From: Leeia oryzae DSM 17879
GTDB taxonomy: Bacteria; Pseudomonadota; Gammaproteobacteria; Burkholderiales; Leeiaceae
Length of the DNA: 64,000 nt
Assembly (NCBI RefSeq): GCF_000376945.1
Contig: NZ_AQXU01000025.1
Location: 62,001 to 126,000 of the forward strand
Direction of reading: 5' to 3'
The notes beneath the pieces are model-generated. The model was not told the origin of the DNA, ran no database searches, and saw nothing but the letters and a program-made list of their open reading frames with translations. Positions 18,508 to 22,022 of the stretch are shown here, in pieces. A program made the position numbers and the translations under genes. The stretch's first letter is position 1. Every line of letters begins with the position of its first letter.

Positions 18508-21117
18508 ATGACCACAGAAAATACCCCAACCTCTTCCACGGAAGCCATCAAGCACACCCCGATGATGCAGCAGTACCTGGCCCTGAAGGCAGACCATCCG
18601 GACAAGCTGCTCTTTTACCGGATGGGGGATTTCTATGAGCTGTTCTATGGTGATGCAGAAAAAGCCGCCCGTCTGATGGACATTACCCTGACCGCCCGCG
18701 GGCAAAGCGCCGGGCAGCCGATTCCGATGGCGGGCATTCCTTATCATGCGGCCGAGCAATATCTGGCCAAACTGGTCAAACTGGGTGAATCGGTCGCCAT
18801 TTGCGAACAGGTCGGCGACCCCGCCACCAGCAAAGGGCCGGTCGAGCGCAAGGTGATGCGGGTGGTCACGCCCGGTACGCTAACCGACGCCGCCCTGCTG
18901 GACGATAAAAAAGACAACCTGCTGCTGGCCGTGCTGCCGCTAAAAGGCAAACTGGGCCTGGCCTGGCTGTCACTGGCATCCGGCCGCTTCTCGCTGCTGG
19001 AAACCCGGATCGACCACCTGTTATCAGAACTGGAGCGCCTGCGCCCGGCCGAAATCCTGATGCCGGAAGACCTGGACATCTCCCTGCTACAGCAGACCGG
19101 TGCCCCGACCAAACGCCTGCCGGTCTGGCACTTTGATGAAAAAGCCGCGCATCGCCAACTGTGCAAGCATTTTGGTACCCAGGATCTGGCAGGCTACGGT
19201 GCAGAAGAACTGACCCTGTCGGTTGGCGCTGCCGGCGCCTTGCTGCAATATGCCCGCAGCACCCAGGGGTCTGAGCTGCCGCATGTGCAAGGCCTGAATG
19301 TGGAGACCCGCGGCCAGTATGTCGAGCTGGATGCGGCCACCCGCCGCAATCTGGAACTGACAGAAACCATTCGCGGCGAACCCGCGCCGACGCTGGCATC
19401 AATCATGGACAGCTGTGTCACCAGCATGGGCAGCCGCTTGCTGCGCCACTGGCTGCACCATCCGCTGCGAGACCGGCAGAAACTGGCACATCGCCATCTG
19501 GCCATCGAAGCCCTGATCGATTCTGGCAAGCTGACGTCTGTGCGTCAGCAACTGAAGAGCATTGTCGACATCGAGCGCATCGTCAGCCGGATTGCGCTGC
19601 GCAGTGCCCGCCCGAGAGACTTGTCTGGCCTGCGGGACAGTTTGCGCGGGCTGACCAGTCTGACCCCCCTACTGGATGGCATTGATGCCCCGCTCATTGC
19701 CGAGCTGGCCCGCCACCTGCAGCCCCCTGCCGATGTGCTGGCCCTGCTGGTCGCCGCCATCTTGCCCGAGCCAGCCACCCTGATACGCGACGGCGGCGTA
19801 ATCAATCAGGGTTACTCGCCGGACCTGGATGAACTGCGCAACATTCAGAACAACTGTGATGAATTCTTGCTGGCACTGGAAGCCCGCGAACGCGAGCGTA
19901 CCGGCATTGCCACCCTGAAAGTAGAGTACAACCGCGTACACGGGTTCTATATTGAGGTCAGCAAAGCCCAAAGCGATAACGTGCCGGACGATTACCGCCG
20001 TCGCCAGACGCTGAAAAACGCCGAACGCTATATCACGCCCGAGCTGAAAACCTTCGAAGATAAGGCGCTATCTGCCCAGGATCGTTCGCTGGCGCTGGAA
20101 AAGCAGCTCTATGAAGCCGTACTGGATGCGTTGCAGCCGCATCTGGCCAATCTGCAACTACTGGCACAAGCGGTAGCGGGGCTGGATGTACTGGCTTCGT
20201 TTGCCGAGCGAGCCGATGCACTCGGCTGGCGCAAACCCGAGTTTGTCGAAGACCACATCATCCAGATCGAAGAAGGGCGTCACCCGGTCGTCGAAGCGCA
20301 GGTTGACCATTTCATTTCCAATGGCACCTCCCTGTCGCTGCTGCGCAAACTGTTGCTGATTACCGGCCCGAACATGGGCGGTAAATCGACCTATATGCGT
20401 CAGACCGCACTAATCGTCCTGATGGCGCATGTCGGCGCCTTTGTGCCGGCCACCAGTACGCGCCTGGGGCCGATTGACCGTATCTTCACCCGTATCGGCG
20501 CATCGGACGATCTGGCCGGGGGCCGCTCAACCTTTATGGTGGAGATGACGGAAACCGCCAACATTCTGCATAACGCGACTGAGCACAGCCTAGTACTGAT
20601 GGATGAAGTAGGTCGCGGGACATCGACCTTTGACGGTCTGGCACTGGCCTATGCCATCGTGCGGCAGCTGGTCGACAAGAATCGCAGTTACACGCTGTTT
20701 GCCACCCACTACTTCGAGCTGACGCGGTTGGCACAGGACTACCCGCAGATTGCCAACGTACATCTGGATGCTGTCGAGCACAAAGATACCGTGGTGTTTC
20801 TGCACGCGCTGAAAGATGGCCCGGCCAGCCAAAGTTACGGGCTGGCGGTAGCTCAACTGGCCGGCGTGCCCGGCAGTGTCATCCGCGTTGCCCGCCGCCA
20901 CTTGCAGCAGCTAGAAGCCATGAGCATCGGTGCGGGCGGCCCGCAAGCCGACATGTTTGCCATGCAGGCCCTGGAAGACCTGCCAGAGCCTGCTGCCCCT
21001 GCGTCTGAAGCCCTGCGGTATCTGGATGACATCCAGCCGGATGAGCTAAGCCCGCGACAGGCGCTGGAACTGTTATATGAACTGAAAAAGAAACGCGAAG
21101 CGGATTTGGATGAATGA
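18508..21117 (+). CDS. mutS: DNA mismatch repair protein MutS
   Basis: MutS recognises mispairs and, with MutL, starts strand-specific repair. The 869-aa chain matches the E. coli length (853). The mismatch-binding Phe motif is in [11 protein letters not shown] (domain I). The ATPase domain carries Walker [10 protein letters not shown], then the Walker B region [16 protein letters not shown] and the ATHYFELT motif. The C-terminus ends with a helix-rich tail ([16 protein letters not shown]) typical of the tetramerisation region. ATG 18508 (MTTENTP) fits homolog starts better than the in-frame ATG at 18475, but neither has a strong ribosome site. It converges with a 40-aa membrane protein gene only 6 bp away. 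Confidence 0.97.
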
Positions 21118-21123
21118 AGCGAG

Positions 21124-21246
21124 TTAACCCGTCACGGTGATGAAAATCAGATAAAAGCCCACCAGGGTCGAGGCGGTAAATACCATTTTATCGCCCAGGG
21201 TAGACAAACGGGCAGAATCACCGGTAATCTGACGGATATAGTTCAT
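21124..21246 (-). CDS. 40-residue single-span membrane protein
   Basis: AGGAG seven nt upstream points to the ATG at 21246; an in-frame ATG two codons earlier lies too close to that box. The product begins MNYIRQITGDSARLSTLGDK, a polar and slightly basic segment, and ends with one hydrophobic helix (residues about 21-40, VFTASTLVGFYLIFITVTG). It is transcribed from a consensus-like promoter whose spacer is a 22-bp palindrome, so it looks like a regulated real gene. I do not recognise the family. Candidates include a stress-induced small membrane protein or a modulator of a larger membrane complex. Confidence 0.7.
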   Translation of the reverse strand: MNYIRQITGDSARLSTLGDKMVFTASTLVGFYLIFITVTG

Positions 21247-21281
21247 GGCCATGCTCCTGAAGTGGTTGAGACGATGACTTT

Positions 21282-21309
21282 ATTATAGAACGATCGTTCT
21301 ATAAGTAAA
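21282..21309 (-). promoter_or_regulatory. sigma-70 promoter overlapped by a 22-bp perfect palindrome
   Basis: On the minus strand TTTACT (21309-21304) and a perfect TATAAT (21287-21282) are 16 nt apart. The palindrome at 21283-21304 (half-site TTATAGAACGA) fills the spacer and touches both boxes. A bound repressor would block polymerase directly. The form resembles TetR-family operators, which is inference. It lies about 37 bp upstream of the 40-aa membrane protein gene. Confidence 0.75.
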
Positions 21310-21386
21310 GGGGTTTCATCCACTTTTATGGCCAGAAAATGTTTATTGGTATTTTTGCAACTCGCAGCTTGCCCGCCCGAACCGGT

Positions 21387-22022
21387 TCAGACCGGGCGTA
21401 CCTTGTACCAGCCGGTAATGCTGACCCGGTCCTTGCACGATGGCAACACTTCATGCCAGAAACGTTCCGATAAAAAGATCACCGCCGTACCGGCCGTCGG
21501 TTCGATATCGATAAAATCCGTCTCGCCTTTTTCATCCAGATACAGCCGCAACTCCCCGCCATCGCCCAGATGCCAGTCCGGGTTCAGGTAATACACCACT
21601 GTCACCACCCGGCCTTTGTCGCCACGGAACGCATCCAGATGCTTCTTGTAGTAAGCGCCTTCGTCATAAATGGCAAAGTGGCCTTCAAACTCGAACAACC
21701 CCAGATACAAGCCCTGATTGATCTCGCGCTGCAAAGCATCCAGTCGCTCGAAGTATTGCCGCTGGGTTGGCGTAGCAGTGCTAGCATCCAGCCACATCAC
21801 TTCGTCAGAACGGATGCCTTCCCTGACGGTAAAATCACCGCCACGGCCAATGCCTGCCACATGAAAACCGCCCTGACGATGCGCGACCAGGCATTCTTCG
21901 CGCAACCTGGCCACCGTTTCAGCCGGCAACAAACCCCGCGTAACCGCCCAGCCCTTCTCGGCCAGTGCGTCCACCACCGCAGACAATCCATCCGGAGAGG
22001 ATAAATCCAGCATCTGACTCAC
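21387..22022 (-). CDS. 2-oxoglutarate/Fe(II)-dependent oxygenase (SM-20-like)
   Basis: The 211-aa protein has the double-stranded beta-helix signature of prolyl-hydroxylase-like oxygenases. HLD (in YYKKHLDAFRG) and a distal His (RFWHEVLP) would bind iron, and the Arg in DRVSITGWYK would bind 2-oxoglutarate. The spacing fits the SM-20/PHD branch, whose bacterial members hydroxylate proteins such as EF-Tu in some Pseudomonas. The start is a GTG at 22022 with GGAG upstream. It follows tlyA by 51 bp on the same strand, so a role linked to ribosome or translation modification is possible but unproven. Confidence 0.88.
   Translation of the reverse strand: MSQMLDLSSPDGLSAVVDALAEKGWAVTRGLLPAETVARLREECLVAHRQGGFHVAGIGRGGDFTVREGIRSDEVMWLDASTATPTQRQYFERLDALQREINQGLYLGLFEFEGHFAIYDEGAYYKKHLDAFRGDKGRVVTVVYYLNPDWHLGDGGELRLYLDEKGETDFIDIEPTAGTAVIFLSERFWHEVLPSCKDRVSITGWYKVRPV

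Follow-up and report, generated by a model that had tools for sequence, protein, structure and literature searches.

The window, by which we mean the whole 64,000-nucleotide stretch of Leeia oryzae DSM 17879 analysed here, contains on its minus strand a 40-codon gene (ORF 21246-21124, stop codon 21126-21124) that encodes MNYIRQITGDSARLSTLGDKMVFTASTLVGFYLIFITVTG. Its promoter consists of TTTACT, a 16-nt spacer and TATAAT, and a 22-bp perfect palindrome fills the spacer and covers five bases of the -10 hexamer. The original prediction had placed such a palindrome between these two hexamers, and it is present exactly as described; it is the only 22-bp perfect palindrome in the window, against ~0.015 expected. 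TTTACT/TATAAT on the minus strand is also the single promoter-like site in the intervals 21050-21500 and 20600-21400, and its -10 hexamer lies ~35 nt from the ATG. An alternative 42-aa form starting at 21252 is possible, with an ATG only 1 nt from AGGAG. The features are collected in Table 1.

Table 1. Features of the 40-codon gene and its control region, in window coordinates.
Feature	Position	Strand	Basis
LexA operator (SOS box), perfect 22-bp palindrome TTATAGAACGATCGTTCTATAA	21283..21304	none	copies before SOS genes; matrix consensus
-35 hexamer TTTACT	21304..21309 (21309-21304)	minus	sequence; position matched in G002 and G001
-10 hexamer TATAAT	21282..21287	minus	overlapped by operator
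Shine-Dalgarno AGGAG	21254..21258	minus	7 nt ahead of ATG at 21246
40-codon gene, SOS-controlled single-pass membrane peptide (predicted)	21124..21246	minus	codon pattern; genus homologues
Predicted transmembrane helix, about residues 21-39	21127..21186	minus	hydropathy, helix model

Homologues in the genus, MKYIRQLTSDTNRLSSLGDAIVFAVSSMVGIYLLAGMIFPA in G002 and MLTARPHVDRSTHTGDRAVFVATLLIGFMLLGSSLMV in G001, each lie directly behind the same box with the same promoter layout, the -35 equivalents being TTTACA with a 16-nt spacer in G002 and TTGACG with a 17-nt spacer in G001. When the gene is compared with its G002 homologue, codon positions 1, 2 and 3 are identical in 25, 28 and 15 of 35 codons and 10 of the 20 shared residues use different codons; this combination of codon-position identities and synonymous changes indicates a coding frame, and together with the well-placed AGGAG it bears out the predicted well-translated gene. 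A homologue of 37-41 aa behind the same promoter-operator occurs in 3/3 genus genomes and in 0/396 other genomes of the order. A scan of all 399 genomes with a combined pattern (box, -10, 65-95 nt, GD..VF) matched these three and no others, with 0 matches for the reversed control. Profile searches of the same 399 genomes likewise returned no box-associated member beyond the genus, the weak matches (E 0.005-0.1) being without boxes. The G001 member is weak on sequence alone (E 0.74) and was accepted because it shares the operator. The peptide diverges fast: the two genus homologues are 50% and 32% identical to it versus 91% and 77% for LexA. No homologue was found by tblastn against phages and plasmids, and no relative emerged when 84,980 genomes, a set that may omit near relatives of the window's genome, were scanned with a peptide pattern. 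Scanning with the neighbouring oxygenase recovered distant relatives only.

The predicted single C-terminal membrane helix is supported by the hydropathy of residues 21-39 (1.89) and by a structure model in which residues 3-39 form one helix (mean pLDDT 89), though the model of a lone helix adds little and a structure search with it gave no match, as expected. In all three genus proteins a short N-terminal part of net charge +1 precedes a C-terminal hydrophobic stretch whose tail is uncharged, which suggests N-in insertion; the topology is thus probably N-terminus in, with a single C-terminal helix in the inner membrane. The helix core is devoid of charged residues. Identical and similar positions gather on a single face of the helix, D19-V22-S26-V29-G30-L33, which starts just ahead of the transmembrane helix (permutation p 0.004, or 0.02 when only identities among the three sequences are counted), and this conserved face suggests a specific partner in the membrane, possibly another helix.

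The identity of the operator emerged from its other copies in the genome. The palindromic form is like that of TetR operators, and it had been proposed that the gene is under a TetR-family repressor, with a copy of the site before a TetR gene as the support to be sought. We collected all genome sites that differ from AGAACGATCGTTCT at two positions or fewer and read the gene downstream of each. These sites precede recA, lexA, three umuD genes (each with a polymerase V gene downstream), alkZ and the 40-codon gene; the sole other site, within an EAL-domain gene, looks like a chance match. Pfam confirms RecA, Peptidase_S24 and AlkZ-like domains among the genes behind the sites. A census with a looser pattern adds a site before uvrD (a UvrD-like helicase, named from its protein start), and the remaining GAACRNNYGTTC matches examined sit within long ORFs. 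None of the genome sites examined has a TetR gene behind it, and the same motif lies ahead of lexA in most relatives that carry this LexA; a ligand-responsive TetR operator thus retains next to no probability and was rejected, since the site copies form a LexA/SOS regulon. From their sequences the genes behind the copies are those of the SOS regulon, and because the copies precede recA, lexA, umuD, alkZ and uvrD we take the palindrome to be a LexA box. The expected signal for the gene would then be DNA damage rather than membrane or drug stress in itself.

A scoring matrix built from 29 boxes that precede recA, umuD, imuA and lexA genes in relatives, leaving out every box of the window's genome and all small-ORF boxes, points the same way. 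The operator at 21283-21304 is the exact matrix consensus and reaches the matrix maximum of 35.6 bits, the best of the sites scored in its genome (recA, 31.2; lexA, 23.1; alkZ, 28.5; umuD sites, 30.3-34.3 bits). The second-best site in the window scores 11.1 bits, and 4 Mb of simulated DNA yielded at most 19.3 bits. As here, the operators of recA and umuD occupy the spacer and reach into the -10, a position suited to block the promoter; the operator/-10 junction GTTCTATAAT is common to recA, two umuD genes, the G002 homologue and the 40-codon gene, and that of the G001 homologue is GTTCTATTAT. The assignment of the palindrome as a LexA (SOS) operator of the GAACN4GTTC type is therefore well supported, and from it we infer that LexA binds the site in vivo and that the gene is DNA damage-inducible.

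The trans-acting repressor implied by the original prediction for a small operator-controlled membrane protein would accordingly be LexA, the only one of the genome, a 194-aa protein encoded 66 kb from the window operator (C25:16755-17339; L019 6755-7339) by a gene that has a box upstream of itself. It contains an S24 domain (Peptidase_S24, E 1e-26), and in its sequence the Ala-Gly cleavage site is retained as VRAGLP, the Ser position lies in GDSM and the Lys position is kept too. Like relatives at L061-L090, this short divergent LexA scores just below family cut-offs, with 20-22 bits for the DNA-binding domain in Pfam (cut-off 23.7) and 104.7 for TIGR00498 (cut-off 110.95). Relatives with E < 1e-35 are found in 52/200 genomes of the order. 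GAACN4GTTC lies directly upstream of lexA in 28 of the 30 loci read, the other two being one with TGTACGTTCGTACA and one that is not orientable, and in relatives the box is also found ahead of recA, umuD, imuA, recN, recG and SRAP-like genes (named from protein starts). In many of the order's families the short divergent LexA apparently runs a complete SOS regulon. lexA and SOS boxes have been stated to be absent in Laribacter and Chromobacterium (PMC3135505), a statement that may merit a recheck with the divergent LexA and the GAACN4GTTC box.

Several further genes were seen behind boxes of this type. An AlkZ-like DNA glycosylase is under a LexA box in G000 (L018 6882-8165) and G001 (L150 1474), which suggests that interstrand crosslink repair may be SOS-induced. 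Three genomes have strong boxes ahead of similar 90-130-aa proteins (..PRFRFSE/LS..) of unassigned family (L123 1538-1810, L138 1517-1789 and L133; family f5), probably another uncharacterised SOS gene. In G099 (L124 1497), a strong box 125 nt ahead of a gene for an RND-type membrane fusion protein possibly indicates an SOS-linked efflux pump. G002 has a second small membrane ORF of 62 aa (MWFFDWVAGLFGIARGELFIYLGLGLFGLSFLNG..., L155 1580-1768) behind a good LexA box, with no Pfam match. No convincing small membrane ORF was seen behind the boxes read in other families that have this LexA.

The 40-codon gene and mutS are convergent, 6 nt apart (window 21117-21124), with no good terminator between them, and transcription induced by SOS could run on as antisense RNA into the 3' end of mutS. 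It might be supposed from this arrangement that the relevant product is that RNA, which would lower mismatch repair, and that the ORF is incidental. The frame, however, is conserved with a coding pattern, and the arrangement is absent in G001 and G002: the G002 locus keeps the oxygenase and tlyA neighbours with a GGDEF/EAL gene in place of mutS, and the G001 neighbourhood is unrelated. As synteny is not kept while the frame is, we rejected the antisense reading as very improbable. Of the expected conservation of the frame downstream of mutS, frame and operator held within the genus but the mutS neighbour did not; the peptide gene travels with its operator, and its position downstream of mutS is incidental.

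Taken together, the sequence evidence points to the 40-residue protein, a predicted membrane peptide, as an SOS-response member that had not been described before. The peptide family is new and genus-restricted; SOS-induced small membrane proteins as a kind are already known. By analogy with these, the most likely effect of the peptide is to stop the cell from dividing or growing during DNA repair, and we consider the best explanation, with a probability of roughly 0.55, to be an SOS-induced inner-membrane peptide that blocks cell division in the manner of SidA. As long as the DNA is undamaged, LexA dimers would occupy the spacer and -10 and keep the promoter shut. RecA filaments on damaged DNA would trigger LexA self-cleavage (Ala-Gly site, Ser/Lys dyad), the promoter would fire, and the 40-aa peptide would insert in the inner membrane as a single C-terminal helix whose conserved face could dock on a membrane partner in the division machinery, holding back septation until the DNA is repaired, as SidA of Caulobacter does via FtsW.

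Since Pfam, NCBIfam and PHROGs gave no family match at a meaningful score for the peptide, the division target is assigned by analogy, and given SOS control the chances that it is the division machinery are about even. SulA (PF03846) was not found in any of the three genomes of the genus, with a positive E. coli control, and the predicted regulon contains no other division-inhibitor candidate. A more detailed proposal, in which a fast-evolving, genus-restricted checkpoint peptide under a rewired betaproteobacterial LexA replaces SulA and binds a divisome membrane protein through its conserved face, is tentative and falls somewhat short of even odds. The conserved face would suit any specific partner, and many small single-pass proteins work by modulating another membrane protein; an SOS-controlled modulator of a transporter, protease or sensor kinase, neither toxic nor connected with division, nevertheless seems distinctly unlikely, as there is no linked partner gene and the neighbours vary between genomes.

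The main rival, which we regard as unlikely but clearly ahead of such a modulator, is a peptide that self-assembles in the inner membrane and lowers proton motive force and ATP, leading to growth arrest or persistence as with TisB or DinQ. In length, in having a single helix and in its tight LexA site, the 40-aa peptide matches those two. Among E. coli LexA boxes, that of tisB is the closest to consensus, for a toxic membrane peptide that is induced late (PMC9040746), and the box here is similarly the best of those scored in its genome; by this precedent a perfect box fits a product that is harmful to healthy cells. TisB and DinQ loci, however, carry antisense RNA antitoxins and processed mRNAs, whereas here the -10 is close to the ATG and the 20600-21400 interval has no opposing promoter-like site, bearing in mind that consensus scans miss many promoters. 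The uncharged helix core and the conservation of one face also speak against depolarisation. Three points lead us to favour the SidA-like division inhibitor: one helix face is conserved, SulA is missing and no signature of an antisense antitoxin was seen.

How division is arrested under DNA damage without SulA has been solved in few species, mostly with unrelated small proteins, and the 40-aa peptide is now a specific candidate for this role, apparently from Betaproteobacteria, whose operator is defined and of which there are three orthologues. The order comprises more than 50 families, and the proteins read seem to fit Betaproteobacteria (Burkholderiales as GTDB defines it). The divergent LexA and its GAACN4GTTC box can also reveal SOS genes too small for normal annotation. 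A noncanonical betaproteobacterial LexA-binding motif close to GAACGAACGTTC was reportedly described by Sanchez-Alberola et al. in 2015 (J Bacteriol 197:2622). That system resembles ours in that a betaproteobacterial LexA binds a motif that is not CTGT-N8-ACAG, and it may differ in lineage and in the 40-codon target gene found here. For Betaproteobacteria, SOS control through a noncanonical LexA motif is already on record (cited in PMC8565304 and PMC13148647).

Known SOS-controlled membrane proteins of several types can be compared with the peptide. YneA and SosA consist of a membrane helix plus an extracellular part. The 40-aa peptide differs from them in ending within or just after its own helix. 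YneA of B. subtilis and SosA of S. aureus are SOS-induced membrane division inhibitors (PMC13396833, PMC6851548), and they share with the peptide LexA control and a membrane anchor. TisB and DinQ of E. coli, the latter a 27-aa single-helix toxin, are LexA-controlled type I toxins that depolarise the membrane (PMC9040746, PMC3567139); LexA control, a short single helix and, for TisB, a near-perfect operator are held in common, but here we found no antisense antitoxin, long leader or family match, and the promoter-ATG distance is short. SidA of Caulobacter crescentus is a 29-aa LexA-controlled inner-membrane division inhibitor that acts via FtsW (PMC4211646). Our peptide, which has a longer N-terminal part, is like SidA in being LexA-controlled and, by prediction, a tiny single-pass inner-membrane protein; a SidA-type target is proposed for it by analogy, and its LexA box is GAACN4GTTC in contrast to the GTTC-N7-GTTC of Alphaproteobacteria (PMC8565304).
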